Source of the DNA: Candidatus Aenigmatarchaeota archaeon
GTDB lineage: Archaea; Aenigmatarchaeota; Aenigmatarchaeia; GW2011-AR5
DNA: 37,159 nucleotides
Assembly: GCA_016198685.1 (NCBI GenBank)
Contig: JACQID010000004.1
Location: 1 to 37,159 of the forward strand
Reading direction: 5' to 3'
The notes below the pieces were generated by a model. It saw nothing but the letters and a program-made list of their open reading frames with translations. It was not told where the DNA came from and did not search any database. The number at the start of each line of letters is the position of its first letter. Position 1 is the first letter of the stretch. A program made the position numbers and the translations under genes. Positions 4,280 through 26,546 of the stretch are shown here, in pieces.

Positions 4280-4685
4280 TTATCGTGGCAATGCGCAGTA
4301 TGTGTTGCCAGAGGTAGCAGTTCTATTAATGGTCGTGGTATCAACCAGTGTCAGATGCACTCGGCAAACTGCATCCGCATTTTGCGACTATACATGTTTG
4401 AGTATCTGCAAATTTAGCCTCTTGGCATAATTCCGCAATATCTAAAGTGCTTGCCTCTGCATCGCCGGGTTTTCTATATTGTGCTTTTGATAAGGGCACC
4501 CTGTCTATATCGCAATTATATGCATTAACAAAAGTGGCGCATGCCGTAGATATGGCATTATTGAGTTCTATTGAATTCTGCCCCTGCCCTACATTCACGG
4601 CGAAGAAGCCGCCTATGACCATGAGAACAAGGACAGCTATCGCAACGATAACAATTGTGTTTATGGGGAGAGAAACGCCCTTCAT
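4280..4685 (-). CDS. Pilin-like membrane protein, apparent 1-nt frameshift
   Basis: The frame begins MKGVSLPINTIVIVAIAVLVL, a K-G motif followed by a long hydrophobic helix as in class III (prepilin-like) signal sequences. As read, the frame stops at 4341 after 114 aa. At 4380-4383 there is a run of four T on the plus strand. Removing one base joins the reading to a second frame ending LVDTTTINRTATSGNTYCALPR at 4280. The corrected product is 134 aa, exactly the length of the adjacent paralogue at 4719-5123, and retains regularly spaced Cys. The frameshift may be a sequencing or assembly error, a real mutation, or programmed slippage. It is the last gene of the 13-gene operon. Function is unknown; a minor pilin or pseudopilin-like subunit is inferred from the N-terminus. 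Confidence 0.6.
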
Positions 4686-4718
4686 GTTTTCATATTGGGA
4701 TCGGGATTATATAAAGAT

Positions 4719-5123
4719 TCATTCTTCAGCAGAAGGCGGGCAGAATGCAGCGCAGCATATTCGGGCGCATGAAAAATCAAGGCTCCCGCTCCCTGAGCAT
4801 TCTACAATGCCGGTCCTCTGGCAAGCGGCTTTGAGGTTTTGTGCTTTTTCTGAGAGTTGCGCCTGTGTTTCCGAAGCCTTGGTTATATCTTCTGAATCGG
4901 CTCCCGGCGGAAGCGATACGGATGTAAAATCAAGATGGCGGCTCTGTTCACATTGCGTTCTTGCGATGTATTCGCCGCACACGCTCACTATCGTCTGCCT
5001 TGCTTTTAGCTCTTCGGTCGCTGGAGTGAAAGAGCCAAAGAAAAACATCAACACCGCCCCAAGAACGATGATGGACAGTATGACTATGACAATTGTTTCT
5101 ACCGGCAGTGCCGAGCCTTTCAT
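4719..5123 (-). CDS. Pilin-like membrane protein with Cys-rich tail
   Basis: From ATG 5123 the 134-aa product starts MKGSALPVETIVIVILSIIVLGAVLMFFF. It is closely similar in layout to the next gene (MKGVSLPINTIVIV...): K-G, then a small polar stretch with an LP motif, then a hydrophobic helix of about 20 residues. The remaining 100 residues are predicted to be outside the membrane. They contain a C-x7-C pair (CQRTGIVEC) and a CARICCAAFC cluster near the C-terminus, suggesting disulfides. The K-G resembles a prepilin peptidase site and the Glu seven residues on (VETI) fits loosely. It belongs to the minus-strand operon 12215-4280, 32 bp after the preceding gene. An ATG two codons upstream is possible. 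Confidence 0.7.
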   Translation of the reverse strand: MKGSALPVETIVIVILSIIVLGAVLMFFFGSFTPATEELKARQTIVSVCGEYIARTQCEQSRHLDFTSVSLPPGADSEDITKASETQAQLSEKAQNLKAACQRTGIVECSGSGSLDFSCARICCAAFCPPSAEE

Positions 5124-5155
5124 TGTCATATATTTGCCGTTTAGTATATATTACT

Positions 5156-6298
5156 TTAGAATCCGCCTTGACATTCGTATCCTATCCGCGTGGCGGTGCA
5201 TTCAGGGTTGGCGCATATTTCAATCTCTGCCCATGTCCCGCCGAATGCATGGCAGCAAGTCTGGCTCCCTTCTTTTTCCGAGCGGTCGCAGAAATATGAG
5301 CCTGTGCATGCATAATTTCCGTAAATGCCGCCGCTTACCATGTTTTCTCCAATTGCCGCAAGCGAGGTGCCGCAGGTATATATTTGTCCCCCGGAGCATA
5401 TCGCATCCCCTATACGTTGTATATTGTATCTTCCTGCACTCGATGCGCAATTCAGCGCAATTGATGTGCCTGTGGATCTTACGGGAAGCGTGAAGCGTGC
5501 TTCCACGAATTGAATATCGTCGAAATGCCGGTTGAGAACGCCTTTATCCGTTACTACAGAATCAACGGCATAACGAAGATCGATGCCCTTCTGTCCTTCT
5601 GCGGCTTCTATTGACGTAGAGATGCTTTCTACGTTTGTATCGACGTTTCCGCCGGACAGCCTTGCGATTGCTGAAATTATCCTGTTGCGCACCTCATCTT
5701 CGTAAGCTCTTGAACTCATATCGGACGTTGAATATTGGCGTGCCGCAATCGTTTCGGTTACTGTGCGCTCAACGGTATTGCCTTTCTCTATCATGAGCGG
5801 AAGAAGCACGGCAACTGAATACTCCCTCAAGAAAGACGCGCGTGCGCTTGACTCAAAGAAATTTATTCCTATTGTGCCTTTAGCGTGCAGATTGACTCTG
5901 TCATCTAGTATCTCAAACTCGGGATTTATCCCGTTCAAGTTGAGAATAATCCTGTTTATGTCAAGGCTCCTTTCAGGAAGAAGGCTCTTGGCATTCTGTG
6001 ACAGCCGCTCTTGCACGAATTCCTTTGTCACGCCGGACTTCCAATCCCAGCTTGCGGATTCTTTGGCAAGCAAGAACACCGATTCAGGAGCGGCGATCTT
6101 CCAGAACGCGTCAAGGCTTCTGTTTGCTGCCCAATAAACATTGTTTACGGTGTAAAGCTTTGCTTCTTCCTGTGCCATGAATATCTGTCTTCCTGTGGAT
6201 GTTATTATGAACACTACAAGTATTACGGAAAATCCAACGACCATGATGGTCATGAACAGGGATTGTATTGCCCCTCCTTGCCCTTTCAGGTCAGTCAC
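5156..6298 (-). CDS. Bitopic membrane protein, KGQ-type leader, Cys module
   Basis: The 380-aa protein begins (GTG 6298) MTDLKGQGGAIQSLFMTIMVV, a K-G-Q followed by a 25-residue hydrophobic helix, the closest match in the operon to the archaeal class III signal peptide. The ectodomain (about 45-380) is alpha/beta-like up to residue 290. It ends with a Cys module C-x7-C-x21-C-x5-C-x10-CC followed by CANPEC...C. The same C-x7-C ... C-x10-CC spacing occurs twice in the neighbour 6291-7154. The gene overlaps the end of that neighbour by 8 bp, so the two are translationally coupled. I recognise no enzymatic motif; a large pilin-like or structural envelope subunit is the best guess. Confidence 0.72.
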   Translation of the reverse strand: MTDLKGQGGAIQSLFMTIMVVGFSVILVVFIITSTGRQIFMAQEEAKLYTVNNVYWAANRSLDAFWKIAAPESVFLLAKESASWDWKSGVTKEFVQERLSQNAKSLLPERSLDINRIILNLNGINPEFEILDDRVNLHAKGTIGINFFESSARASFLREYSVAVLLPLMIEKGNTVERTVTETIAARQYSTSDMSSRAYEDEVRNRIISAIARLSGGNVDTNVESISTSIEAAEGQKGIDLRYAVDSVVTDKGVLNRHFDDIQFVEARFTLPVRSTGTSIALNCASSAGRYNIQRIGDAICSGGQIYTCGTSLAAIGENMVSGGIYGNYACTGSYFCDRSEKEGSQTCCHAFGGTWAEIEICANPECTATRIGYECQGGF

Positions 6299-7154
6299 TT
6301 GTTGTCACCTTCACGTAGCCTGTTCTGTCCTTATAGAAAAGCGGTATCTTTGCTTCGGCAATCTTGCCCTGTATCTCCAGAACTTTAGGGTCGATGGAGC
6401 AGCAATAAGGCGTCTTGCCGGCATTTGCAAGTTTGCATGATTCTTCGTACTCCGGCAGTCGTATCGTGCCGCCGCATCCTCCGCCGGAACATATGCCTTT
6501 TTCCAGGGGACCGCACTTTACAACCCCGATTCTTTCCTTCTCAGGTCGGTCATATTTATGATCAAGCCACTTATTGTAATCTTCTTCGCTCGCAGCGATG
6601 CAGCATATCTTTCGTGCTTCCGTGAATGAACGGCTGCAAGAGTTTGCGCCGCCTTCTATTTCAATCTTGCCGGCATTGCAGTCTCCCATGAGAACCCCGC
6701 TGCTGAACCCGCCGGAAACTTGCTGGACACAGACGCCCTGCAGGTCGCTACCGCATTTCTGAAGGCTGCCGGACTGAAGGATCGGCATATCTTCCCCGTC
6801 GGTCTCAAGGCTTATCTCATAATAGTTCAGGTCATATTCTCCCAGGAATCTTGACATCTCTATTCCGAGCCTTTCTTTCTTTGCAGGATCCATGCCCTTT
6901 TGGATGAAAGCCTCATACATATGAGTCATTATCGATCTTCCTTCAACCGTGGCGTTCGTAAGTATGCTCGCAACTGTGTAAGGCGTGTTTATCACGTCCA
7001 GATAATTTACTGCGTATACTGCTTGACCCGGATTCAGAGGGCAGAATGGCAATTCAACGCATATGAGCATGAATAACAGAACTATGAGAGATATCACTAT
7101 AGCTATAATCAGGATTTTTGTCCCAAGAACGCTGTCTATGAATCCTTTCTGCAT
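6291..7154 (-). CDS. Bitopic membrane protein with duplicated six-Cys module
   Basis: The 287-aa product starts MQKGFIDSVLGTKILIIAIVI: K-G, then a hydrophobic helix at about 12-35. The outer domain contains two copies of a six-Cys module. Copy 1 is C134-x7-C142-x16-C159-x13-C173-x10-C184C185. Copy 2 is C214-x7-C222-x4-C227-x12-C240-x10-C251C252. The fixed x7 and x10 spacings and the terminal CC pair are seen again in the next gene. Such regular Cys imply disulfide-bonded, secreted mini-domains; I do not know a named family. It starts 1 bp after the upstream stop and overlaps the downstream start, deep inside the operon. Confidence 0.72.
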   Translation of the reverse strand: MQKGFIDSVLGTKILIIAIVISLIVLLFMLICVELPFCPLNPGQAVYAVNYLDVINTPYTVASILTNATVEGRSIMTHMYEAFIQKGMDPAKKERLGIEMSRFLGEYDLNYYEISLETDGEDMPILQSGSLQKCGSDLQGVCVQQVSGGFSSGVLMGDCNAGKIEIEGGANSCSRSFTEARKICCIAASEEDYNKWLDHKYDRPEKERIGVVKCGPLEKGICSGGGCGGTIRLPEYEESCKLANAGKTPYCCSIDPKVLEIQGKIAEAKIPLFYKDRTGYVKVTTSD

Positions 7155-7155
7155 T

Positions 7156-8079
7156 TTACGACCCCTCGTCTATGCAAAGATAAATTTGCCCGATCTCTTC
7201 GCGGGTTTCTGCGACCTTGCTCTCGTAATCACCGCACTCGGCATTGGAGGCTTCAAGCGTTTCGCCCTTCCGCAGGGGAACGGCCTTGAGCGCGAACTGC
7301 GGAGAGGTATATGTCACTATATGAGTATCTAGCGAATAGTAAAAGTCATCAGGAAGCTTGAATGACTCAAACGGTAGCATTTCGTCAATAGTGCGGCATC
7401 CGCGTGTTTCTTCCTTGCCGTCTTCAACTTTAATGTAGCAAAGCTGGCCGGATTCTTTTTTCAAATATAAATTGCAATATTCGCCTCTTATCCGTGAGCC
7501 CGCAAGTCCCGGCACGGCGGTTTCTCGGGTCTCTACGCACGCAATCGAAGTAGCCAGCGTTTGCGCCTGGCCCGTTGCATAAGCTTCTGCAAGCATGCAC
7601 GATACATCCGTGAGCCATGTTCTATAGACCTTTATAGTGAGCTTTGCAGGACCTGCATATTCATCGCGCCTGACTGCAACTACAAATTCTTTTTCGGCAT
7701 CGTTCGAGTATTCTTTGCTTACATCCGACGGTTCAAACCCAAATTCCCATATGTTTCCTCCGTCGGCATTTTTTATTTTTGGATCAAGGCTTTCTATTTT
7801 CATGTGATATGCCATGCTGCAGTGGCGGCCTATAGGCTCTTGCAGCGGACTTGCCATATATTCATCGAGTTTTTCGGCGAGGAATATCCCCCTTTGCTCG
7901 GTAGCGGGACCGGATAGCAGCGTGTTTCCTATCTCACGCGAGGCCTTCTGCGTGAAATCGAGTCCGGTAGTCGTGTACACGTTGGTCATAAACAGTACCA
8001 TAGCTACTATGAAAATGCCGAATGCTACCATACGAATGACTGCAAGAATCTCGTCGGGAACTGGAAATTCTTCTGACAA
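7156..8079 (-). CDS. Bitopic membrane protein of the pilin-like operon
   Basis: The 307-aa product has a short acidic N-terminus (MSEEFPVPDEI), one hydrophobic helix at about residues 14-36 (VIRMVAFGIFIVAMVLFMTNVY) and a large outer domain with scattered Cys, for example HCSMAYH and CGDYESK near residue 285. There is no K-G leader. It follows the 133-aa gene by 4 bp and precedes the next gene by 1 bp. No family is recognised. The conserved topology (single N-terminal anchor, large ectodomain) is the same as its neighbours, suggesting a subunit of one complex. Confidence 0.68.
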   Translation of the reverse strand: MSEEFPVPDEILAVIRMVAFGIFIVAMVLFMTNVYTTTGLDFTQKASREIGNTLLSGPATEQRGIFLAEKLDEYMASPLQEPIGRHCSMAYHMKIESLDPKIKNADGGNIWEFGFEPSDVSKEYSNDAEKEFVVAVRRDEYAGPAKLTIKVYRTWLTDVSCMLAEAYATGQAQTLATSIACVETRETAVPGLAGSRIRGEYCNLYLKKESGQLCYIKVEDGKEETRGCRTIDEMLPFESFKLPDDFYYSLDTHIVTYTSPQFALKAVPLRKGETLEASNAECGDYESKVAETREEIGQIYLCIDEGS

Positions 8080-8083
8080 ATTA

Positions 8084-8485
8084 TCAGCCTCTCACAATTA
8101 TTATGTTTTCATTTCTTTCAAATACAATTTGGTCGTGCTCGGAACAGTCAAAGCTTGCAGGCACGACGGGGGCCGCATACTGTATCGTCCCGACAGATGC
8201 CTTGGCTTCTTTTTCTCCGGGACTAAGAGTCATAGTCACGCGGTCGCCCAAGGTAAGTATGCATTCCTTGTCCGGAAGCTCATAAGAATGGCTCGTGCCT
8301 GCCGGCGATTGTTGCATTATGTTAATAATTCCGGATATTTCCGAGGCATATCTTTCCGCAGAGAGTTGTCCTGCTTGGGCCGCGCCCTGATATAGCGGGC
8401 TGTATGCCGCGATTGTGACTATGGCGGTTACCAGAAGCAGGATAGTAAAGAACATCATCATGCCTTTCATGACGATACTTGTCAT
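8084..8485 (-). CDS. Small pilin-like membrane protein
   Basis: The 133-aa frame starts at ATG 8485, but an internal ATG at 8470 gives MKGMMMFFTILLLVTAIVTIAAY. That begins with K-G directly before a hydrophobic helix, as in three other genes of the operon. The start at 8470 is therefore attractive, but both are possible. The remaining 100 residues form a small ectodomain with two Cys (DKECILTL, FDCSEHD) that could pair. It lies 16 bp after the 452-aa gene and 4 bp before the 307-aa gene. Unknown function; a minor pilin-like subunit is inferred. Confidence 0.65.
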   Translation of the reverse strand: MTSIVMKGMMMFFTILLLVTAIVTIAAYSPLYQGAAQAGQLSAERYASEISGIINIMQQSPAGTSHSYELPDKECILTLGDRVTMTLSPGEKEAKASVGTIQYAAPVVPASFDCSEHDQIVFERNENIIIVRG

Positions 8486-8501
8486 GATGCTCTAATATCC
8501 T

Positions 8502-9860
8502 TTAGCGCGGGGCACTCCACGGCCACTGCCATGTTACGCCGCCTACTTTGCCTCTGACTCTATCCCATATGGCGGCGATCTCCGAGGGTTTGACCGTCGG
8601 CACCGTATAAATGAAGATATTCTTCTCAATAGCTATTACGTTATTTTTGACGGGCGTGGGGCGGTCGTTTATCACAGGGGTTTCGGGTATGAAACCGAAG
8701 GGAGGATTGTAGGTGTAGCAGCCCCCGTTTCGTCTCTCCTGAGTTTCCACGATGACGCAGCTGGAGGGCTTTTCATTTGCCGCCTCGTCAGCCGCTTTTT
8801 CACGCTTCATGCCGTCCATGCAGATATAGCTATAATCGGAATTCTCCTGCAATCTCAAGAATTTCTCGCCATCGTATGAATAAAGCGGGTATTTCGCATA
8901 TTTGTCGCAAGTGCATTCCCCCACGCGCACGGTTATCTCGTCTATTTGGCAGGGACTGTTCAGATAAAAATTGCTCTGGTCCTTGTCATCGAGGGCATAT
9001 ATGTCCGCCGGAAGAACGGGCGTAATAATGCCTGCAGGGCGGGATGTTATGACATCTTTGACTGCGTCATAAAGGCCGATGGCTTTGGCATTCAGCTCTA
9101 TGTGCGTAGGGCTGGCAACTTCCGGATCGCCGGTTGTCGCGGCACAATTCTTGAGAGGCAGCGTGTACACGGCCGCAGGCGTCTTTACGCAAAGCGAACC
9201 TGCGCCGCATGCCATATATTTGACCAGCGTCCTGTTGAAATCCGAAGGATTGTAGCTCAGAACGAATGTTCCGTCAGGATTGCGTTTTCCTGCGCCTGCG
9301 TTCTGCCTGATGCCGCCCGTTCTTGCAGTTTCCATGCTCAAAAGGTCAGTGGATTCGGGAAGTATTATGTTATTGACGACTATTTCGTAATTTTCTATGC
9401 CGAGTTCCTGAAGCTTCGGGAGGGCTTTCGCGCGGACGTCTTCCTTGAATTGGAGAAACTGCTTGCGCGTGAAAGCCTCTCCGTAATCTATCTGGGCGAA
9501 TACGATAGCCTGCGGCAAACCGTCATGCAGATAGGTCTCCCAGCTCACCGCCTCCCCTATAGGGAATGCTTCATAATATAATAGGTATTCGGGATCTATG
9601 TTCATCTTTATCTTTGCCGCTGCCTGCAGGGCATACGTTGTGCTTCCCTGGGGCATCCCGAATTTGGTAACCTCGACTTCCTTTCCCGGTCCGATGAAGC
9701 AGGCTTCCTCTATGGCGCTTCTCAGCTTTTCTGTATTTGCAAAGGAGATCTGCTCATACGGTTTTAGATCAGCAAACAATGCTACAATGAATACTATGAC
9801 TATCATAGCCACAAGCAGGCTTGTCAGCGTGTTAAGTATGAGAATTGTGGTCTGGCTCAT
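8502..9860 (-). CDS. Largest bitopic subunit of the pilin-like operon
   Basis: The 452-aa protein has an N-terminal hydrophobic helix (about 5-30, MSQTTILILNTLTSLLVAMI...) and the operon's largest ectodomain. Cys pairs appear through the second half (NCAAT; SPCQID; GECTCDKY; SCVIVE; GGCYTYN). The C-terminus ends in an aromatic, Trp-rich segment (VTWQWPWSAPR). Its ATG overlaps the stop of the upstream 40-aa gene as ATGA, a standard translational coupling. No enzyme motif is visible. By size it could be the scaffold or tip component; that is inference. Confidence 0.7.
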   Translation of the reverse strand: MSQTTILILNTLTSLLVAMIVIVFIVALFADLKPYEQISFANTEKLRSAIEEACFIGPGKEVEVTKFGMPQGSTTYALQAAAKIKMNIDPEYLLYYEAFPIGEAVSWETYLHDGLPQAIVFAQIDYGEAFTRKQFLQFKEDVRAKALPKLQELGIENYEIVVNNIILPESTDLLSMETARTGGIRQNAGAGKRNPDGTFVLSYNPSDFNRTLVKYMACGAGSLCVKTPAAVYTLPLKNCAATTGDPEVASPTHIELNAKAIGLYDAVKDVITSRPAGIITPVLPADIYALDDKDQSNFYLNSPCQIDEITVRVGECTCDKYAKYPLYSYDGEKFLRLQENSDYSYICMDGMKREKAADEAANEKPSSCVIVETQERRNGGCYTYNPPFGFIPETPVINDRPTPVKNNVIAIEKNIFIYTVPTVKPSEIAAIWDRVRGKVGGVTWQWPWSAPR

Positions 9861-9979
9861 GAAAGATACCCCTTTATGATGCTCCAGAGGTCTATATTCG
9901 CGTTTGAAATGTAAGCCAAGAGCACTGCCAGAAGTATGAGCATTGCGGCCATTGCAACGACAACTTCAACGGGTTTCAT
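9857..9979 (-). CDS. 40-aa single-span membrane protein
   Basis: The frame from ATG 9979 reads MKPVEVVVAMAAMLILLAVL followed by LAYISNANIDLWSIIKGYLS and stops at 9857. It has one hydrophobic span (5-24) and a short amphipathic tail. It is below the usual gene-calling cutoff. Support comes from its coupling: it begins 1 bp after the stop of the upstream 50-aa gene and its stop overlaps the start of the 452-aa gene in an ATGA. No family is recognised. Possible role: small assembly or anchoring subunit. Confidence 0.6.
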   Translation of the reverse strand: MKPVEVVVAMAAMLILLAVLLAYISNANIDLWSIIKGYLS

Positions 9980-9980
9980 T

Positions 9981-10133
9981 CTATCTGCCTATAATTCTGA
10001 ATAAGCTTGTTACCTTGTCTGCAAGGAAATCTGAGTTGGGAAGGAATATACTCATAGCCAGTCCCATTACCAATAGGATTATAAGCATGGACCAGCCGGC
10101 CCTTACCAATGTTTCTATGTTCAGAGATAGCAT
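9981..10133 (-). CDS. 50-aa single-span membrane protein
   Basis: The frame from ATG 10133 reads MLSLNIETLVRAGWSMLIIL, continues LVMGLAMSIFLPNSDF, and ends in an amphipathic LADKVTSLFRIIGR with the stop at 9981. One hydrophobic span is followed by a charged helix. The next gene starts one base after its stop. A gap of 47 bp separates it from the 290-aa gene upstream. Without this and the 40-aa frame the operon would have an unexplained 325-bp hole, and both frames have the topology of all the other members. Family unknown. Confidence 0.58.
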   Translation of the reverse strand: MLSLNIETLVRAGWSMLIILLVMGLAMSIFLPNSDFLADKVTSLFRIIGR

Positions 10134-10185
10134 TCTCTCGTTGAATATTATGGCAATGACGGCATTTATGCTTTCTTTGCCGTGT

Positions 10186-11058
10186 TTATGCCAATTTGTC
10201 CCTGCATTCGTTGCCCGACCATTTGCAGTTCGCCCGTGCCCATGCGCATCCCGTGCACTTATCGCTCCCGGAGTCGTCGAACAGAGGCGTGTAGTGTGAG
10301 CATATCTCGGTCACGGGACACGCAAAGCACTGCCCCCCGGATTTAGCGCCCGCAAGGAAGGATCTTTCATAGTAACATACATCGTAAGGCGGTTCTATGC
10401 TATTGCACTGCACTTCATCCCTTGCATCCTCGCATACAACACTCCCAGCGCATGTTCCTTGCAGCATGAGGCCTATACTTGCAGAATTTAGGTAGCTCTC
10501 AGGGCATTGATCCAAAAGATAGGACGAGTCCGCGATTTTATTTGTCCCTTCTTCCACTATGATATTTTCAGTTCCTATCTTCCTCTTTATGCAGTCGCTG
10601 TTTCTCCATGCGGTCAGACGAACGAACGCGGTCCTGTCGTCTATCTCTCGCACCTCGCCCTGAAGTTCTCCGTAAAGATTTACGGAAAGAAATGTTTCCC
10701 CATCGAGTGAAAGGACGCGGTTTTTCTCTGTATTCCATTCCGGCAACTGTCCCAATACTATGAGATTTTTGCGCAATTCTGCCACGACTATGAAACTTAA
10801 CTCCGGATCCTTCTGCGTGGCAAAGCCTGTTCCAGAAAGACTGATGGCATAGTCATAACTGCCTTTTGTAAGTTTGCAAAACAGGGGAGCCTGATCGGGA
10901 AGTTTTTCTATTGTGAGAAGCCCGGGCTCGAACGTTTTTATGTATCGTTCCGCTTCAGCTTGCGAGTTTTTCTGGTATTCGTCGATAATCATCATGATGA
11001 CCATGAAAGCAGTAAAGATTACAACGACCATAAGCAAAGTGCGTTTCATATCTTCCAT
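10186..11058 (-). CDS. Bitopic membrane protein with PSI-like Cys-rich C-terminus
   Basis: The 290-aa product (MEDMKRTLLMVVVIFTAFMV...) has an N-terminal anchor at about residues 6-24, a beta-rich middle and a very Cys-rich final 100 residues. These include CTGCAWARANCKW followed by NEC, a CxxC...C-x-W...C arrangement resembling plexin/PSI-type disulfide repeats, preceded by CFACPVTEIC. It begins directly at the end of the 296-aa gene (no gap). The outer disulfide-rich domain suggests adhesion or structural binding. The resemblance to PSI repeats is by eye and low in certainty. Confidence 0.7.
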   Translation of the reverse strand: MEDMKRTLLMVVVIFTAFMVIMMIIDEYQKNSQAEAERYIKTFEPGLLTIEKLPDQAPLFCKLTKGSYDYAISLSGTGFATQKDPELSFIVVAELRKNLIVLGQLPEWNTEKNRVLSLDGETFLSVNLYGELQGEVREIDDRTAFVRLTAWRNSDCIKRKIGTENIIVEEGTNKIADSSYLLDQCPESYLNSASIGLMLQGTCAGSVVCEDARDEVQCNSIEPPYDVCYYERSFLAGAKSGGQCFACPVTEICSHYTPLFDDSGSDKCTGCAWARANCKWSGNECRDKLA

Positions 11059-11949
11059 TTATGCCACCTCAAGTAATTCTTTTTCGGTCTCGTGTTCTCC
11101 AAGAAACGCATTATAGCATTCCGGGCGCGATATCAAATCCGCGTAAGTTATCGCATTTTCAACGCATGAGCCTGGCGGGCCCTTGTTCCAAAAGCTAATG
11201 CGCATGGTTTCTAATATTTCCTTGCCGTTCCCCTCTTTTACCATTATTTTGGCCTCAGCAGTTTTACCGCATTCAATTTTCCCTATAGATATTTCGATTT
11301 CGCCGTTGCACAGCCCGACAATCCTGTTGCATTCCGAAGGCAAATCGCTTTCTTTGCATTCTCTGAGTTGCACGGTTTTTGCGTCATTTTCGCACAAAAT
11401 ATTGAAGAACGCTATGCAATCGCCGGCGATAAGGAATTTTTTTCTCAGTTCCGAAAGCTTAATTTGATAGCTTCCTGCGTCTTTCAGCACGATAGATTCT
11501 TCAGGCGATACGGCACCCTCGAATTTGTTTGACCGCAAATCACGTATAGGAGGCTCGTTGCTGACTATATGGGCAGTCACAATACCCCTGAATTCGCTGC
11601 TTTCCGGCGAAAAGGAAAAGTAATCATTGCCTGTTTCACTAATGACCATCTTAGCGCTTTTCCCTTTGAATTCTACGACAGGGACTGCATCAATTCTGGC
11701 CACACTTTCCTCGTTAATGTTGCCTGAATATTTGGCTATAATGTCCATGGAAATTGAATATTCGTAGCCGGATCCTAATTTTCTGTAGGTTATATCGGGT
11801 TCAGATGCGAATGCCACGACTATGTCGTTATCGCTATTTGCATCCGCAGCGGCCTCCTTGACGTTAGAGGGGAAAATATATAGCATTAGCATGAAGGCCA
11901 CGAAAATGAGTATTATTGATAGAATAACTTCCCTCGGGACAACAATCAT
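11059..11949 (-). CDS. Bitopic membrane protein of the pilin-like operon
   Basis: The 296-aa product starts MIVVPREVILSIILIFVAFMLMLYIF, a hydrophobic helix at about 7-26, followed by an ectodomain that looks like one or two beta-sandwich folds (alternating strands: VARIDAVPVVEFKGKSAKMVIS, EIEISIGKIECGKTAEAKIMV). Several Cys lie between residues 175 and 235 (CIAFFNILC and onward) and two near the C-terminus. It starts 12 bp after the 49-aa gene and abuts the 290-aa gene. No family is recognised. Confidence 0.68.
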   Translation of the reverse strand: MIVVPREVILSIILIFVAFMLMLYIFPSNVKEAAADANSDNDIVVAFASEPDITYRKLGSGYEYSISMDIIAKYSGNINEESVARIDAVPVVEFKGKSAKMVISETGNDYFSFSPESSEFRGIVTAHIVSNEPPIRDLRSNKFEGAVSPEESIVLKDAGSYQIKLSELRKKFLIAGDCIAFFNILCENDAKTVQLRECKESDLPSECNRIVGLCNGEIEISIGKIECGKTAEAKIMVKEGNGKEILETMRISFWNKGPPGSCVENAITYADLISRPECYNAFLGEHETEKELLEVA

Positions 11950-11961
11950 AGATCATGCACT

Positions 11962-12111
11962 TCAGAACGGAATTCCTATCGCCGCGAGAAAATTCGACTT
12001 GTCAAGTGCTCCAGAAAGCACCATGATTACTATCGCGGCCCCCACTAAAAATAAGATGAGTACTGGCATTAGCTCCATCACAAGGGAGCTTACGCCTTTT
12101 TTAGCCGTCAT
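11962..12111 (-). CDS. 49-aa pilin-like membrane protein
   Basis: From ATG 12111 the product is MTAKKGVSSLVMELMPVLIL then FLVGAAIVIMVLSGALDKSN and FLAAIGIPF. The K-K-G before a small-residue stretch, a Glu and a hydrophobic helix is a good match to class III (type IV pilin) signal peptides, although the protein has almost no ectodomain. Its ATG overlaps the stop of the upstream 35-aa gene (ATGA), and the next gene starts 12 bp after its stop. It is too short for routine ORF calling but strongly supported by coupling and N-terminal motif. Confidence 0.6.
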   Translation of the reverse strand: MTAKKGVSSLVMELMPVLILFLVGAAIVIMVLSGALDKSNFLAAIGIPF

Positions 12112-12215
12112 AAGAACCTCCCGAATATCCAAGCTGCCATGCCCACAAGTATAAGTCCCGTTATAAGAAATATGAAAATCTTAAGAAGTAAGGTCATGTC
12201 AAAGGATGCTTTCAT
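12108..12215 (-). CDS. 35-aa single-span membrane protein, first gene of operon
   Basis: ATG 12215 opens MKASFDMTLLLKIFIFLITG then LILVGMAAWIFGRFL and a TGA that overlaps the next ATG. The protein is essentially one transmembrane helix with a basic N-terminus. A weak AT-rich element (CTTTATC on the minus strand, about 12240-12246) lies near the expected promoter distance. As the first frame of the cluster it would mark the operon start, divergent from CarS. Moderate confidence, resting on overlap and topology. Confidence 0.52.
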   Translation of the reverse strand: MKASFDMTLLLKIFIFLITGLILVGMAAWIFGRFL

Positions 12216-19043: not shown

Positions 19044-21641
19044 CTACTCCTTCTTTTTTGTGTTTTTGCCTTCAAGCTTGTGCCGGTAAGCATATACCGC
19101 GAGTGCTGCTATGAGGAATCCTGCCATGGCGAGAAGCGGGTAATTAGGCGGAAGTGGAGGTTCGTCAGGCAGAGTAGTTGTGGTTGTCGTAGTTACGACA
19201 TCCGGCATCGTAGTCGTCGTTGTGGCCGTTGTGGTCGCTCTGCTAGTGTTCCTTGCGGCTATTGCAAATGTTGAGAAGCCCGGCGATTGTGCAGTGAGCT
19301 CTACTTCAGACGAACTCTCACTTATTATTGTCGGGGTAAGCTCATCCCAAGCCGTGGTATATCTCATGAGTACAACATCTTCTTTCCTATAGACGTTGTC
19401 GGCGAGCCATGACTTGCTGACATTGAATTTTATGGTGGCGCTTTGTATATTGCTGTCATTGATATTCTCCTTTGTTATTTCAATATATTGGAACACCGAC
19501 CCGGCTATCTCTTTGGCTATACTTGAGGGCTTTGCAGCAAGCTTTTCTATGTTTATTCTTACGTTACTGACCTGATTAGCTACTTGAATATCAATTGATT
19601 TCATGCCTATTCCAGCATCGTCTATATTCAGTTTTGTCACGCCTGATGGCAGGCTTGTCCAGCTTTTGCTGGTTTTAGGATTAAGCTTGCTGCCTCCTCC
19701 GCCGGAACTGGAGCTTGAGCTGCTTGAACTGTCGGATGATGTTGAGGGTATCACATAACTCACAGAGATCGTATGCGTTCCGGAAGGCACGTTGTTAAGC
19801 ACAAGCGAACCGAACGTGTAATTGTTTGAAGTATATGGCATACCGTCTATAGTGACGCTGAGGCCGCAGTCCGCGCCTGTAGAACCGCAATTTGCGCTGT
19901 TAAGGCCGTCAAGCTTGGTTGTAAGATTTATCGGGGCGCTTGATGATAATTGCGTAGTTACATTGTAAGAATTATTTCCTTCAGCGCCTGCAGCGCCGTC
20001 CGATTCGCTCATTATCGGGAACGTTATTTGTGCAGAGAAATTTATGCGTGCCCAAGGCTGTTGAGCGCTATTGCTCGTGGGAGTCCAGTTCCTTAGCGTT
20101 GCATGGGTATTGTTGCTTGTAAGTACTACATCCCAAGTCGTTACATGGATAATTATTATCTTGTCGGTTCCGCCGAAGGCTTCTGTGAAGTTGACCACGC
20201 TTTCTCTCTTCACAATGGATACGCCCGAGTCGGTCGCGTTTCTCCATGTTGTGCCGTTCCATAATGTAATATTGGCATCCTGAGTCATGTTGAACTGCTT
20301 GAATGTGCTGTAATCCGTGTTAAGCATGGTGACATTCATCGGAACCATGAAGCTTACCGAGGCATTGTCCAAGGTATAATTCCATAGGACATTAGTCACA
20401 TTGACAACGGTTGACATGGTCTTGGTTTCGCCAAAGGCAGGAGGCTCGTTCATGCCCCAGCCTGTCTGCTCCTGGCTGAGGACATAGACAGGAGAAACCA
20501 TCCTGCTGTTGGAGGTATCCATAACCGTGAAGAATACGGTTATTTGAGTATTATTGGTGTCATTGAGGAGAGTTTGGTTGATTGTTGATAAGTTGATTGT
20601 AAGTAGCTGTATGCTCTGGTCGATGCCGCTCATTCCGGTATTGAATGTTATGTTTATTGCTTTCTGCTGCAAAAGCTGCGATGTTGTATAATTTGTTCCA
20701 TTGAAGAAGACTGTGAAGTCGCTGGGATTGGGTATTCCCATGGTGAAGTTTCTTGTGGCGTTGCTATGGAAGTCCTCTACGACTTGAGTATGGATTAAAA
20801 GCGGGTAAAGCGTTTGGTTCGTGAATGCGGAATTATTTATGGGTGATTTCAGTGTGAAAGAAGCATTCGTTACGCTTCCTGTATATACTAACGTGAAAGT
20901 TAAATTGTATGAATAAAGTCTCATGTAACTTGGGAATTCGAAGAATGACTTGTCAAAATACATTATTTCAGCGAAGGTATTGTTGGCCAATACAGGTCTT
21001 TTCAACGTATCGTTATATGTTTCAAGCGGCGCCATAAGTTGGTAGCCCTTGTCAGTCTGGTTCCACTGGAGTATTCTTAATGTAGCATTGTTTGATGCGA
21101 AAGATGTGACTGAAGGTCTTGGGTTCCTGAAATAATTGCCTGCATAGAATTCAACAATTGTGCTGTTGATTCCTGAACAATTACCGCAGTTAACAGTGTA
21201 ATTGAATATATTTGTGCCGTACATGGCGAATGCCGACATGTTTGTCGTAACATTAAGGGCGTAGAGGCGGTGGCCTATCGTGTCAGTTATGTTTTCTCTG
21301 GCCGTATGAGTATAATTTATCTCGCAAACCATATGCGTCGCGTTGTGAAGAGAAAAATTGGCAGCGCCTGTGCATGTATTAACTATATTCAATGCGCCTG
21401 TTGAGTTCAATGGAACAACGCCGTAAGGCATTATGAATTTTATTGAGATGTTGATCGCAGGCTCGACTGTCGGGGAATTGGCAGACACATTGGCATAGAG
21501 TGTGTATGTCCTGTTCAATTCGCCTACGGTGAAATTAATTCCGCTAAAAGTAGTGTTGCTAACATTGAGGCTCGCTGCGCTGGATATTGCGAAGCTTGCC
21601 ATGATCAATACTGAAATTATAAATATAGTTTTTTCATTCAT
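19044..21641 (-). CDS. Stalked surface protein with PGF-pre-PGF domain
   Basis: The 865-aa protein has a signal peptide (MNEKTIFIISVLIMASFAISSAAS) and a long Asn/Thr-rich ectodomain (about 25-640) with dozens of N-x-S/T sequons. A Ser/Gly linker (SSSSSSSSGGGGS) comes next. A PGF-pre-PGF domain at about 655-800 ends SPGFSTFAIAA. Then come a Thr-rich stalk (TTTTTTTMP twice), one transmembrane helix and a basic KKKE tail. This is the archaeal plan for a glycosylated membrane-anchored surface or adhesion protein projecting through the S-layer. Unlike classic PGF-CTERM proteins, the tail keeps a normal anchor with RHKLEGKNTKKKE. Its closest relative is the next gene upstream. TATA at 21671-21680. 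Confidence 0.85.
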   Translation of the reverse strand: MNEKTIFIISVLIMASFAISSAASLNVSNTTFSGINFTVGELNRTYTLYANVSANSPTVEPAINISIKFIMPYGVVPLNSTGALNIVNTCTGAANFSLHNATHMVCEINYTHTARENITDTIGHRLYALNVTTNMSAFAMYGTNIFNYTVNCGNCSGINSTIVEFYAGNYFRNPRPSVTSFASNNATLRILQWNQTDKGYQLMAPLETYNDTLKRPVLANNTFAEIMYFDKSFFEFPSYMRLYSYNLTFTLVYTGSVTNASFTLKSPINNSAFTNQTLYPLLIHTQVVEDFHSNATRNFTMGIPNPSDFTVFFNGTNYTTSQLLQQKAINITFNTGMSGIDQSIQLLTINLSTINQTLLNDTNNTQITVFFTVMDTSNSRMVSPVYVLSQEQTGWGMNEPPAFGETKTMSTVVNVTNVLWNYTLDNASVSFMVPMNVTMLNTDYSTFKQFNMTQDANITLWNGTTWRNATDSGVSIVKRESVVNFTEAFGGTDKIIIIHVTTWDVVLTSNNTHATLRNWTPTSNSAQQPWARINFSAQITFPIMSESDGAAGAEGNNSYNVTTQLSSSAPINLTTKLDGLNSANCGSTGADCGLSVTIDGMPYTSNNYTFGSLVLNNVPSGTHTISVSYVIPSTSSDSSSSSSSSSGGGGSKLNPKTSKSWTSLPSGVTKLNIDDAGIGMKSIDIQVANQVSNVRINIEKLAAKPSSIAKEIAGSVFQYIEITKENINDSNIQSATIKFNVSKSWLADNVYRKEDVVLMRYTTAWDELTPTIISESSSEVELTAQSPGFSTFAIAARNTSRATTTATTTTTMPDVVTTTTTTTLPDEPPLPPNYPLLAMAGFLIAALAVYAYRHKLEGKNTKKKE

Positions 21642-21670
21642 ATGCTTACTTTGATACCATGTTAAAGTTT

Positions 21671-21680
21671 GATATATAAA
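21671..21680 (-). promoter_or_regulatory. TATA box of surface protein gene 19044-21641
   Basis: On the minus strand TTTATATATC is centred about 35 bp before ATG 21641, predicting a start site with a leader of under 12 nt. The flanks are AT-rich and no ribosome binding site is evident. Confidence 0.45.
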
Positions 21681-21751
21681 CTTTTCTATATTTCACTGTC
21701 TAATTTCACGCAATTTCGTCAATATTTTTATTATTGAAAGGATATAGAAAT

Positions 21752-23665
21752 TTATTCCTTCTTTTTTGGCGCCTTGCCTTGAAAGTTGTGCCGGTAAGCA
21801 TATGATGCTAAAGCTGCTAATAGAAGCCCGGCTATTGCTATCGCAGTATAATCTGCAGGCGGCGCTGGAATTTTGGCTTCTTCGATCGTAGTCGTTGTAG
21901 TGGTATCAGCCGGCGGCATGGTTGTCGATGTCGTCGTTGTTGCAGCCGGAATTATTTCAGCTGCCGCTATTGCAAACGTGGAGAAGCCCGGCGTATCTGC
22001 GGCAAATTGTATTTGGGATGCGCTTTCGCTTACTACGGATGTAGGCAATCTTTCCCATGCTGTCGTATATCTCATGAGAACTACATTTTCCTTACTATAA
22101 TTGTTGTCTGCCAGCCAGCTCTTAGGCACTTCGAACGTTATTCTTGCGCCATTAATGTCTTCATCCTTGATCTTTTCTTTGGTGATCTCAATATATTGGT
22201 AAGCCTTCCCACTTATGGAGGAGCTGAGAATATCAGAGACACCGGACAGCTTTTCTACGGTTATCTTGGCATTGCTGACTGTATTTTTGACATCAAGTTC
22301 TATACTCTTAACATCAAGATTGCTTTTGTCTATTTCTATCTCGGATTTCCCCGGGCCGAGAACGTTCCAGCTCTGGACCGCCTTCTGGCTGATGGGCGAG
22401 CTGCCGCCTGAAGATGATGTCGAAGTTGTCGTACTGGTCGTTTCATTAACTATGTAAAGATACAGTGCTGTGGAATTGGCCGCGTTCCCGGAGGGATCCG
22501 TACCCTCTATGCGTATTAGATATGCACCTATGTCCAGCGAGCTGAAATTATAAGCTACATTGGTGTTATTGGTCGTTTCGCCCGCTGCCTTGAACGTGCT
22601 ACCAAGGTATATCCTGTAAGTAAGGTTTGTCGCATGAACGTTATCCGTTATATTAAAGTATATCTGGGGAGTGTCATCGCTTGTACTGGTTTCATTCGGC
22701 GGCGATACCGTTCTGGGAGTTGGATTCACATTATCCACTGTTATCGTCAGTAAGGTTGAGTTGAATACATTGCCTGCAGGATCGGTTATTTCAACCCTGA
22801 ATCTGTGAGTGCCATTCGTCAATGCGGTTAGATTGTAGGCTATGATAGTATTATTGTTGGTATCATTTGCGGTCTGGACAGAATCATCGACATAAACCCT
22901 GTAGCTAAGGTTAGTTGCGAATACGTTATCGCTTACATTAAATCTTATTTCAGGAGTGCTGTCCGTGCTATTTGTAGAATTTGCAGGCGATGTTATAGTA
23001 ACCGCGGGATTGATGTTATCTATCGTGATATTGAAAAGAGTTGTGTTGTATCCATTTCCTGACGGGTCATTTATTTCCACTCTAAAGTTGTGGGTTCCGT
23101 TTGTTAAGGCTGTAAAATTGTAAGCAATATTCGTGTTGTTATTGGTGTCGTTAGCTGTCACAACGGTTCCATCTACATATATTCTATATGTAAGATTCGT
23201 GGCATGGACATTGTCTGAAACATTAAATCTTATTTCAGGAGTGCTATCCGTTGTGTTAGTAGAGTTGCCTGGGGAAGTTATCGTCACGCCAGGATTCACA
23301 TTGTCAACTTTGAACGTGATGTTGGTTGAGTTCACAGACACAATGGCATCGCCTGCGGCGGAAGAGTTTCTTCCTTCTATGACGACCCAGTGTGTCCCGT
23401 TAATCAGCGCTGAAAGGTTGACGTGATGCTGGGTGTTATTGTCTATCCTTTGCGTGACGGCAGCATGGTCTATGGCACCGTCAACGATTACGCTGTAGTT
23501 GTAAGTTGTATTGTCTCCGGTTATCGTGAATGCGATTTGGGGCGTGCTATCCGATGTATTGGAAAAATTCGCCGGTGAATTTATCGTGACTGTGAAAGCT
23601 GCGTTTGAAACTGACGCGATGAAAATGAAAGATAATGCTAATAATACAGAGAATGATAATTTCAT
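21752..23665 (-). CDS. Stalked surface protein: four Ig-like repeats plus PGF-pre-PGF domain
   Basis: The 637-aa protein has a signal peptide (1-22) and four Ig/cadherin-like repeats of about 94 residues at roughly 25-120, 124-217, 218-311 and 314-408. Each has the pattern V.ITSP.NST..DSTPEI.FN.SDN and ends TDPSGN. A Thr/Ser linker, a PGF-pre-PGF domain (about 431-575, ending TPGFSTFAIAA), a second Thr-rich stalk, a transmembrane helix and a KKKE tail follow. The last 240 residues are clearly paralogous to those of the adjacent gene. The repeats are rich in N-glycosylation sequons. Likely an adhesin or S-layer-associated stalk. A TATA at 23689-23696 sits about 27 bp before the ATG, predicting a leaderless mRNA. 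Confidence 0.88.
   Translation of the reverse strand: MKLSFSVLLALSFIFIASVSNAAFTVTINSPANFSNTSDSTPQIAFTITGDNTTYNYSVIVDGAIDHAAVTQRIDNNTQHHVNLSALINGTHWVVIEGRNSSAAGDAIVSVNSTNITFKVDNVNPGVTITSPGNSTNTTDSTPEIRFNVSDNVHATNLTYRIYVDGTVVTANDTNNNTNIAYNFTALTNGTHNFRVEINDPSGNGYNTTLFNITIDNINPAVTITSPANSTNSTDSTPEIRFNVSDNVFATNLSYRVYVDDSVQTANDTNNNTIIAYNLTALTNGTHRFRVEITDPAGNVFNSTLLTITVDNVNPTPRTVSPPNETSTSDDTPQIYFNITDNVHATNLTYRIYLGSTFKAAGETTNNTNVAYNFSSLDIGAYLIRIEGTDPSGNAANSTALYLYIVNETTSTTTSTSSSGGSSPISQKAVQSWNVLGPGKSEIEIDKSNLDVKSIELDVKNTVSNAKITVEKLSGVSDILSSSISGKAYQYIEITKEKIKDEDINGARITFEVPKSWLADNNYSKENVVLMRYTTAWERLPTSVVSESASQIQFAADTPGFSTFAIAAAEIIPAATTTTSTTMPPADTTTTTTIEEAKIPAPPADYTAIAIAGLLLAALASYAYRHNFQGKAPKKKE
22733..23296 (-). 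repeat. Tandem coding repeat, 282-bp period
   Basis: Repeats 2 and 3 of the Ig-like array occupy about 23296-23015 and 23014-22733, each 94 codons, and share most residues (for example TDSTPEIRFNVSDNV and YNFTALTNGTH versus YNLTALTNGTH). Repeats 1 and 4, on either side, are more diverged. The similarity between units 2 and 3 points to recent unit duplication and a chance of copy-number change between strains. Confidence 0.7.
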
Positions 23666-23688
23666 TTTAGAGTTATGCCGAGAGATAG

Positions 23689-23696
23689 TATATATA
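23689..23696 (-). promoter_or_regulatory. TATA box of surface protein gene 21752-23665
   Basis: TATATATA is centred 27 bp before ATG 23665 on the minus strand, the distance expected for a leaderless archaeal transcript. No ribosome binding site lies between box and start. Confidence 0.5.
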
Positions 23697-23771
23697 GTTT
23701 TCTAGTATTGCGCTTCAAGAAGCGATATTCAACGGTCATTTTCCAGATATTTTACATAAAATTATAATGAT

Positions 23772-23834
23772 ACTGCTTTGAGCAGTTGAATAAAATGATA
23801 AAGGGAAAAAAGAAAAAAGAAAATAGTTTTTTTC
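23772..23834 (-). terminator. Oligo-T tracts and hairpin downstream of S-layer gene
   Basis: Directly after the S-layer stop codon the minus strand has three T-runs (ATTTTCTTTTTTCTTTTTTCCC within 23805-23830), a strong archaeal oligo-T terminator. About 45 bp further on, a perfect 6-bp hairpin ACTGCT-TTG-AGCAGT (23772-23786) follows, which could stabilise the transcript end. Such a strong signal suits a very highly expressed gene. Confidence 0.5.
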
Positions 23835-26546
23835 TTAGACTGCGTCAGCGAGCACTACGCCGTTCTTCCACGCCATCCTCATACCTGTCAATCCTGTTGG
23901 GTTGACGAGCATCTTGGACGATGCGCGGCTGTCGGCTGCGCTGTGACCTGCGACAACCAGTGCCGCCTTTCCACCGCCGAAGGCGTTGTCGACGTAGTCG
24001 AGAACGTATGTTCCTTCGCCGTTGTCAAGGTACATCTGTCTGTCCCATGTCTTGGCTGCGGATGCGAGCTCAGCAACGAGTGAGTTGACTACAGGGCCAC
24101 CGACAAGGATCAAGTTCTTTGTCGTCTTGGCTGCCTGGTCTGCCTGCACTTCGCTGTCAAGTCTTGCAACTGCGGTCGTTATCGGTACAGACTCCTGCAC
24201 TGTGCTTCCGCCTGTAGAGCCTGTTGTAGATGTCGTTGCACCTTCTGCAAGGACAAGTACTCTTGCTGTTACCTGGTCATCAGGATAGTAGACTTTTATT
24301 GTGTCCTGGCCGTTGGAGTTTCTTTCAGCAAATGTACCCCAGAGGTCTACATATTGTGTTATGTCGGAGTTGCTTCCCAGTGTAGAGCTGTCTTCGTCGG
24401 CTGTGAATGTAGGTGCGTCAGCCTTGGCTACGTTGTTTGAACCGCTTGCTTCTGTCGTGACCGGCAGGATTACGCTGTATTCGTTACCGGCATCGTCCTT
24501 CTCTTCAACGAGAAGGATTGCAGGCTGCGTAACATTCGTGCCAGCTGCAGAGTTTACGGTTATGTTCAACGCAACGGACTGGTTTGGCAGTACGTAGCCG
24601 CTTGCTTGTAATGTATATGCCAAGCCTCCGGTTGAAGTTCTGCCTAGTGTTAGTGTTGCAAGGGTTGCATTGTCGGAGATGTTGAAATTGCTTACACTTC
24701 CAGATGACGTTGTTCCGTCTTCTCTATTGGCAGCCGTCAAGTTCAGGTAGGCATGCGGACCGTCTGTCCAGATGTTTGCCTGTACTGCGCCTGTAGGTAA
24801 GCTGAGGTTCTGTCCATCTCTTAAGACAACAGACTGGTTAGGTGCTACAAGAGCCAGACGTCCACCCTTCTGTGTCTTTATTGTCGGGAATGCCGTCACA
24901 TAAGAGCCTGTATTGTTCAGTGCAGCTCCTGTACCCCACGTTACCGTGAACGTCGAAGAGCTCTGTGCCTGGAAGTAATAAGACTGTCCGTCTATTACTT
25001 TCTGGTCAGCGTTGTCTGTTCCGAGCGTTACAGTAAGCGTTGTACCTGACATGACATCTGTCAATCCGATGGATGCAGAGCTTGTTCCGTCTGCGTTGAC
25101 ACTGGTTACCTTGTATATGTGTCCGAACTGGCCGGCATCAGTCACGAAGTACTGGTCCTGTGATATAGTGGCGTTTTCCACTATGTTTATTGCCTTCGCG
25201 CTTCCGTCCTGCAGGCTGAATCCGCCAGCAGAGGATGTTGCCTTGTGGGCGAACGTGAATGTGTTCTTGCTTCCTCTGTAGTCAGTGAACGTAACCTGCA
25301 CGTCGTTGTCACCGGAGTTCTGGAGGGATAACATGTCTCTTCCAGCATCCTTGGTGTCTGAAGACAAACCAGAGAAGCTCAAACCAAAGCTTTTCCATGT
25401 CGGGTCTGTCAGCTTGCCACCTTGTTTGATGAAGTCTTCGGATGTGGACTTTGCGGACGTGTATATCGTGAACGAAGATATCTGGTCGCCGGATGTCGTC
25501 AATGAAACGGACGTTCCATCTACAGAGTCTTCATTGTCTCCAATCTTTACTTTGGCGCTGTTCTGCAGTATCAGCTTGTCTGCGCCTATGAGCAGTGTAC
25601 CGGAGTTCTGCGTCTGGTCTGTTGTGGACAGGTAGAATACATCATCCATGTATATGGACAGGTCGCCGAACTTCTGGGACGCACCCTTTGTTATACTCTT
25701 CTGTTCACCGTCAACGTTGACGATACCTACGGTTGTGCTGCTTGCACCGACAAAGTTGATGCTGTACGTCTTGCCGGCAATTGTGATCTGCTTGCTTTCG
25801 CCGCCTTTCATGACAGTCTTGTCAGAGCCACCAGCCAAAACGAGCTTAGGAGAGGTTGCGAACGTTGTGTCGCTGTGTACTGTATATTCCTTTCCGAAGA
25901 GCGTTATCTTCTGGCCTATTGCCGTGGACTTAGGCAATGACTTGTCGAAAGTTACTGTTGTTCTATAGAGATAGTTAGAGCTGCTTGGCGATGTCGTTAT
26001 GTCAGAGCCTATAGTGTATGCTGGGTCTTCAGTACCGCCTGCGCCAGGCTTGGCGAACTGCAATCTGTAGCTGCTTGTAGATGCTGTGTCGCTTGGGGTC
26101 AGATAGATGAACTGCTGGTACTTGTAAGACGTACCGTTCGTGTCAACTACTGTACCGTCTGCGAGCAGAGTGGGTAGTTCGTCTTTTGTCATCGTGTTTC
26201 TAACACCAGACTTTCCGAGCGTGTCGTCAAGGAATATCTGTGTGTTGGCTGTTGCTACTTCTTTTCCTTCTCCGTTAACGGAGACTCCTCCAGTGGATCC
26301 GCCTACTGAAGTCGGCTTGCTGGCTCTGCTTCCGAGAGACGCTGCGATGTCAACTGCACCTGCAACGTCGCTGGCCAAACCTTGTGCATCTGTGCCCTGG
26401 GAACCGACAACGATAAGGAAGTCGGCTGTGCCCTGAGCAGATACGAAAGGCTGTGGGTAGTCAGCAAGGCCGGCTGCAAATCCTAGGCTAGAACCTGCCA
26501 TGAGCGCAGATATTGCGCCTGCGGCAACGAGTTTCTTTAGCTGCAT
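23835..26546 (-). CDS. S-layer protein (methanococcal S_layer family)
   Basis: The 903-aa protein has a signal peptide (MQLKKLVAAGAISALMAGSSLGFAAG). It then has the N-terminal S-layer motif LADYPQPFVSAQGTADFLIVVG...AVDIAASLG and a long beta-rich, Asp/Ser/Thr-rich body. The C-terminal motif is LILVGGPVVNSLVAEL...VLDYVDNAFGGGKAALVVAGHSAADSR. N- and C-terminal parts together match the split S_layer_N/S_layer_C architecture known from Methanocaldococcus and many DPANN archaea. No transmembrane anchor is visible at the C-terminus, so anchoring may be through other surface proteins or the N-terminal domain. It should be the major envelope lattice protein. Features of high expression are a strong TATA, an SD motif, a long leader and multiple T terminators. 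Confidence 0.93.
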   Translation of the reverse strand: MQLKKLVAAGAISALMAGSSLGFAAGLADYPQPFVSAQGTADFLIVVGSQGTDAQGLASDVAGAVDIAASLGSRASKPTSVGGSTGGVSVNGEGKEVATANTQIFLDDTLGKSGVRNTMTKDELPTLLADGTVVDTNGTSYKYQQFIYLTPSDTASTSSYRLQFAKPGAGGTEDPAYTIGSDITTSPSSSNYLYRTTVTFDKSLPKSTAIGQKITLFGKEYTVHSDTTFATSPKLVLAGGSDKTVMKGGESKQITIAGKTYSINFVGASSTTVGIVNVDGEQKSITKGASQKFGDLSIYMDDVFYLSTTDQTQNSGTLLIGADKLILQNSAKVKIGDNEDSVDGTSVSLTTSGDQISSFTIYTSAKSTSEDFIKQGGKLTDPTWKSFGLSFSGLSSDTKDAGRDMLSLQNSGDNDVQVTFTDYRGSKNTFTFAHKATSSAGGFSLQDGSAKAINIVENATISQDQYFVTDAGQFGHIYKVTSVNADGTSSASIGLTDVMSGTTLTVTLGTDNADQKVIDGQSYYFQAQSSSTFTVTWGTGAALNNTGSYVTAFPTIKTQKGGRLALVAPNQSVVLRDGQNLSLPTGAVQANIWTDGPHAYLNLTAANREDGTTSSGSVSNFNISDNATLATLTLGRTSTGGLAYTLQASGYVLPNQSVALNITVNSAAGTNVTQPAILLVEEKDDAGNEYSVILPVTTEASGSNNVAKADAPTFTADEDSSTLGSNSDITQYVDLWGTFAERNSNGQDTIKVYYPDDQVTARVLVLAEGATTSTTGSTGGSTVQESVPITTAVARLDSEVQADQAAKTTKNLILVGGPVVNSLVAELASAAKTWDRQMYLDNGEGTYVLDYVDNAFGGGKAALVVAGHSAADSRASSKMLVNPTGLTGMRMAWKNGVVLADAV

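Follow-up and report, generated by a model that had tools for sequence, protein, structure and literature searches.

A conserved thirteen-gene operon of Aenigmatarchaeota, probably encoding the subunits of a type IV filament machine

The window analysed here is a 37,159-nucleotide stretch of the genome of a Candidatus Aenigmatarchaeota archaeon (contig JACQID010000004.1 of assembly GCA_016198685.1), and its minus strand carries a run of thirteen genes, named A to M, from position 12215 down to 4341. We propose, with a probability of about 0.82, that the products of these genes are the subunits, in the membrane and outside the cell, of a type IV filament machine of the type IV pilus (T4P) superfamily, namely the machine called 'Locus 2' in cluster-2 DPANN archaea. 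What is new here is a conserved, largely unnamed subunit operon variant within this known machine class. All thirteen frames are present and have positive coding scores, they are separated by gaps of -8 to +52 bp, and every product has a single hydrophobic helix at its N-terminus, which makes up the whole protein in A, B, E, and F and is joined to an ectodomain in C, D, G, H, I, J, K, L, and M. All are kept in a genome of the same genus (G001), with 45-97% identity. The original prediction of thirteen tightly packed minus-strand frames, nine with ectodomains and four with a helix only, is thus confirmed. The operon proteins contain 3.1% Cys, against 0.7% in the remaining proteins of the window. 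Ten of them were scanned against Pfam and NCBIfam (the tiny A, B, and E were left out) and gave no match above cut-off, including to known archaeal pilin or archaellin families.

Loci were gathered from homologues of G, their genes were called, and families were assigned by profiles; some of the letters that iterative profiles gave to small genes (C, D, and M) were disregarded as evidence, since they stem from the N-terminal helix common to the subunits and do not indicate orthology. Homologues of G occur in 28 of 97 genomes, nearly all of them inside the order. In the order, 24 loci contain four or more of the families C, D, G, H, I, J, and K, and 23 of these loci are collinear without inversion, which places the operon far beyond chance. 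Conservation of gene order across DPANN genomes had been set beforehand as the check on a single multi-subunit, pilus-like envelope system, and the synteny bears that system out. Most contiguous loci read ATPase, platform, A to L, optionally Alba, M, and FEN1, with the platform directly 5' of A in most contiguous relatives. The set directly follows an ATPase and a platform, which indicates that its genes supply the subunits of a type IV filament machine. The Alba chromatin gene lies just before M in many loci (e.g. L039:4087-4359), Nanohaloarchaea included, and is absent from the window.

Among the named loci, an ATPase of the same family occurs in Aenigmatarchaeota, Nanohaloarchaeota, and Woesearchaeota. 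Nanohaloarchaea keep the arrangement of ATPase, platform, single-span genes, Alba, and M-like genes with diverged sequences, and most of the Woesearchaeota loci read have the ATPase and platform without a run of subunits. Over the class-level and named loci, Nanohaloarchaea included, 277 of the 328 genes downstream of the platform encode proteins with an N-terminal single span, against 104 of 897 other genes, a comparison in which some genomes are counted twice and which is to be read as a count, not as a p-value.

The ATPase of these loci (about 740 residues) belongs to the T2SSE family (PF00437, E = 5.5e-17 in the source genome); its nucleotide-binding residues are invariant, and its profile matches the structures of archaeal GspE, CpaF, and FlaI in the PDB, with a best E of 5e-41. 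The source copy, at C8:235-2466, shares 95% identity with its counterpart in Ca. Aenigmatarchaeota archaeon RIFCSPHIGHO2_02_FULL_49_46. The platform (about 650 residues) is a T2SSF/TadC protein (PF00482, above cut-off, E = 1e-5 in the source genome) encoded near the end of contig C3, and an A24 prepilin peptidase (PF01478), found in 36 of 40 genomes, is encoded at G000:C2:81604 of the source genome. The original prediction found neither ATPase nor platform, which is correct for the interval and incorrect for the system, both genes being located elsewhere in the genome, on C8 and C3. The T4P-superfamily machine is complete in the source genus, with its parts encoded at separate places in the genome. 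Contig C3 overlaps the start of the window and the start of C8 alike, by 90 bp, indicating that a repeat breaks the assembly there; same-genus gene order favours joining C3 to C8 instead of to the window contig.

Several further features accompany the ATPase. In the source genus, the gene of a giant secreted protein separates ATPase and platform (L097:363-5960 in G001; end of contig C3, L058). In several relatives, among them L049:1537-5280 and L047:2-3199, an intein-like insertion lies near the nucleotide-binding region, giving open frames of about 1100-2000 residues with split matches. Two coiled-coil genes, conserved to Nanohaloarchaea, are divergent from the ATPase (L096:2626-3683 in the source genome). 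Beyond these, many loci have two to four paralogous proteins of 150-190 residues with about five transmembrane helices (L096:3715-5291; L098, L171, L176), which have no Pfam match and are possibly a further component of the machine.

A K/R-G prepilin motif of class III (hereafter KG) precedes the helix in six of the thirteen subunits, namely B, H, J, K, L, and M. In the stretches of the source genome that were read, two of 19 other N-terminal-helix genes carry it, both from another T4P locus. By family, the motif is present in 34 of 39 L/M proteins, 17 of 22 K, 15 of 22 J, and 11 of 21 H, and in 6 of 25 G, 3 of 21 C, 3 of 13 D, and 2 of 24 I.

The subunits also show relationships to one another. 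L (136 residues, 4719-5129), a Cys-rich pilin candidate, and M (114 residues, 4341-4685), the putative major pilin, are clear paralogues; M has class-wide homologues and six conserved Cys. The AlphaFold2 model of M consists of a 49-residue helix (8-56) followed by a small Cys-rich domain, with a predicted local distance difference test score (pLDDT) of 88.5. G (452 residues, 8502-9860) has a conserved ectodomain and was modelled as a kinked helix 2-56 (2-30 plus 34-56) followed by an alpha/beta domain (pLDDT 77, predicted template modelling score 0.79). Both modelled subunits therefore have the extended N-terminal alpha1 helix of about 50 residues that is pilin-like. G shares its N-terminal domain with H (133 residues, 8084-8485), and C and D are distant relatives (profile match, 81% probability). 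The ectodomain of J (287 residues, 6291-7154) has 12 invariant columns, 10 of which are Cys, in two CG..GxC..C..GR..C..CC repeats. TATA-like elements that may act as promoters lie on the same strand 5' of L (5144-5153) and 5' of M (CTTTATATAA, 4707-4716). Of the 38 L/M genes, 12 have such an element on their 5' side, compared with 7 of the 156 genes for other subunits, an enrichment that fits M and L as abundant shaft subunits.

K (380 residues, 5156-6298) is a modular subunit, ranging from about 230 to 1614 residues among its orthologues. The window copy and most others have in common an N-terminus made of KG, helix, and NRSLxxTWxxS, and a C-terminus of the form LPAxDC...CxGxLYTC. Between these conserved ends, many orthologues carry murein hydrolase domains (M23, amidase, lytic transglycosylase, or glucosaminidase), a feature not visible from the window sequence. 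The cassettes found are Amidase_3 with M23 (L040), M23 with Amidase_3 and Glucosaminidase (L041), Amidase_2 with SLT (L062), M23 with SLT (L050), and M23 alone (L048, L039, and L043), and two more armed copies occur in G016 (M23) and G025 (SLT). Of the 24 genomes of the order in which K is readable, 9 thus have a hydrolase-bearing K; they belong to three families, and G030 provides a weak tenth case. The catalytic motifs look intact in several cassettes (HxH in M23; DPGH and SIHxN in the amidases), and one M23 position is substituted in each of the L050 and L041 copies. Counting convergent neighbours as well as K itself, 13 of 58 M23 matches lie near the locus, more than chance would give (binomial p = 1.5e-4, with the background set generously at 7%), as do 8 of 40 SLT matches (p = 0.006).

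Hydrolase domains were also met outside this family. Single-span subunits from another family of the class carry M23 (G032, G056) or SLT (G045), and a domain resembling lytic transglycosylases (SLT_2, E = 1.8e-8) is inserted into the J orthologue at L062:4142-5479. At the end of the locus, one family of the class has a convergent gene for a multi-spanning protein with M23 or SLT (L112:3183-5192, L251:2091-4190, L253:12290-14464). Class-level proteins labelled K in G037, G085, and G090, together with an SLT neighbour in G049, were rejected: the M23/SLT protein is encoded convergently beside the locus and spans the membrane several times in the cases whose N-terminus was read, and the label arose from capture of the M23 domain by the K profile.

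We infer the following sequence of events, in which the subunits would assemble into a filament with distinct roles at its shaft or tip. The A24 peptidase would cleave the prepilin-like subunits at the KG site, after which the CpaF/FlaI-like ATPase and the T2SSF platform would extract them from the membrane. M and L, two small, Cys-rich paralogues that often have a TATA element of their own, would make up the shaft. Among the remaining subunits, those with KG (B, H, J, and K) could be minor or initiating pilins, and C, D, G, and I, which lack the motif, could form anchored base or priming components together with the helix-only A, E, and F. K, with its conserved ends and exchangeable cassette, would be the variable subunit facing the partner. 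The exchangeable cassette, filled with peptidoglycan hydrolases in many relatives, indicates that the most likely role of the machine is contact with a partner cell, which in some lineages may be a bacterium whose wall is opened locally. As a tentative extension, the hydrolase-armed filament might be a contact-dependent wall-opening pilus, with some Aenigmatarchaeota attaching to, penetrating, or feeding on bacteria; on the same tentative footing, relatives such as the source organism might carry an unarmed form for other partners.

Five observations weigh against our proposal. A recognisable KG motif is missing from seven of the thirteen subunits. The models of M and G have no fold match in the PDB, neither to a solved pilin nor to any other structure, and profile searches of the PDB with M/L and G gave E values of at least 0.17. 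In the source genus, the ATPase and platform do not adjoin the operon; in the same-genus genome, ATPase and operon share a contig, but about 23 kb separate the ATPase from M. The K of the window has no hydrolase domain, and neither M23 nor SLT gave any match in the source genome, so that cutting of bacterial walls cannot be claimed for this organism. Lastly, no filament has been observed.

Other functions have to be considered for the same gene set. The many different single-copy subunits and the helix-only proteins would suit a short pseudopilus piston resembling the type II secretion system, which would export substrates such as giant Cys-rich surface proteins instead of building a long filament, and the giant secreted protein encoded between ATPase and platform in the source genus could be such a substrate. 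Archaea generally have no outer membrane for a piston to cross, however, and the duplication of M and L, their richness in Cys, and the promoter-like element that each often has to itself are what one would expect of a shaft subunit made in abundance. The K cassette is a covalent part of a subunit and not a free substrate. We therefore regard the piston as unlikely. The Alba protein, which binds nucleic acids and is encoded inside the operon in many loci, Nanohaloarchaea included, would fit a machine taking up DNA to feed nucleotide-poor DPANN cells, and DNA uptake has been suggested for DPANN pili (PMC9563170). Nevertheless, the ComEC channel was found in none of 40 relatives, Alba and FEN1 may be housekeeping neighbours, and the wall hydrolases would be left unexplained, which makes DNA uptake quite improbable.

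A divergent archaellum-like rotary motor, in which the coiled-coil genes beside the ATPase would form a scaffold similar to ArlC/D/E, appears highly improbable. Two matches point in this direction, both below cut-off: in NCBIfam the ATPase comes closest to archaellum FlaI, and the best Pfam match of one coiled-coil protein is FlaC_arch. The latter similarity is within coiled-coil noise, however, and we do not claim an archaellum link through these genes. Moreover, no archaellum family was found among the scanned operon members, the genome not having been searched for FlaH or FlaF/G. A type IV filament built from M and L and carrying K remains the reading that we prefer.

The remaining genes of the operon are as follows. 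A (35 residues, 12108-12215) is an open frame with 94% identity in the same genus and the same position in relatives, and it overlaps B (49 residues, 11962-12111) through ATGA; the class III motif of B reads KKG followed by VSSLVMEL.... C (296 residues, 11059-11949) has an N-terminal helix, an ectodomain with 8 Cys in the protein, and N-terminal similarity to the Cys-rich D (290 residues, 14 Cys, 10186-11058). E (50 residues, 9981-10133) and F (40 residues, 9857-9979) are single-helix open frames kept in the same genus. I (307 residues, 7156-8079) has conserved Cys, with C87 and C161 invariant. The operon is flanked by genes for FEN1, CDP-archaeol synthase, and a VTT protein. Elsewhere in the window, at 19044-26546, three large minus-strand frames (865, 637, and 903 residues), at least two of them with a hydrophobic signal-like start, probably encode surface proteins.

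Of 97 relatives, 87 have the ATPase, among them all 37 of high quality, and it occurs in Nanohaloarchaea too, which suggests that the machine is probably central to DPANN life; the source organism, a tiny DPANN archaeon, is itself probably host-dependent. The extracellular half of the machine was previously unnamed, and thirteen named subunits make it testable in a cultivated system of a Nanohaloarchaeon and its host. The K cassette offers a clue, readable from genomes, to the partners of uncultivated Aenigmatarchaeota, and raises the question of whether bacteria serve DPANN archaea as hosts or prey.

Two type IV pilus loci are conserved in cluster-2 DPANN (Hamm et al. 2024, PMC11291902), of which Locus 2 comprises CpaF, TadC, and coiled-coil proteins, the main text naming filament proteins for Locus 1 only. 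Our loci resemble Locus 2 in having the same kind of ATPase (CpaF) with TadC, two coiled-coil genes alongside, and an occurrence in Nanohaloarchaeota, Woesearchaeota, Nanoarchaeota, and Aenigmarchaeota. The machine is thus very probably Locus 2, matched by description and not by accessions, to which we add the set and order of thirteen subunit genes and the wall-hydrolase cassettes. A cluster resembling Locus 1, in which a thermosome-like gene lies, is present in the source genome as well (L057). DPANN islands of this kind were predicted to encode diverse pilins by Makarova et al. 2019 (PMC6393860), who show in Fig. 2A unrecognisable signal-peptide proteins beside an ATPase and TadC and read them as pilins. 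Compared by description, those islands are predicted examples, and the main text is without orthologous families, gene order, distribution, or the K cassette. The original view that no such system had been described accordingly holds for the subunits, which match no family, and fails in part for the system, some components of which Hamm et al. described and the kind of which Makarova et al. predicted.

Archaeal T4P systems in general (Makarova et al. 2016, PMC4858521) similarly combine an ATPase and TadC with major and minor pilins and variable large subunits, and some of those in Thermoproteales are Cys-rich too. The present system differs in its subunits, which have no Pfam or NCBIfam family, in its long, lineage-specific ATPase and platform, and in its thirteen distinct single-span subunits, an unusually high number. 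Archaeal peptidoglycan hydrolases that kill bacteria were described by Strock et al. 2025 (PMC12352652), in a text that never uses the word pili. They resemble the domains found here in being archaeal M23 and other murein hydrolases with inferred or demonstrated bacterial targets. Those enzymes are free and modular, with wall-binding domains, whereas the hydrolases described here form part of a single-span protein that bears a prepilin signal and belongs to the subunits of a pilus locus.

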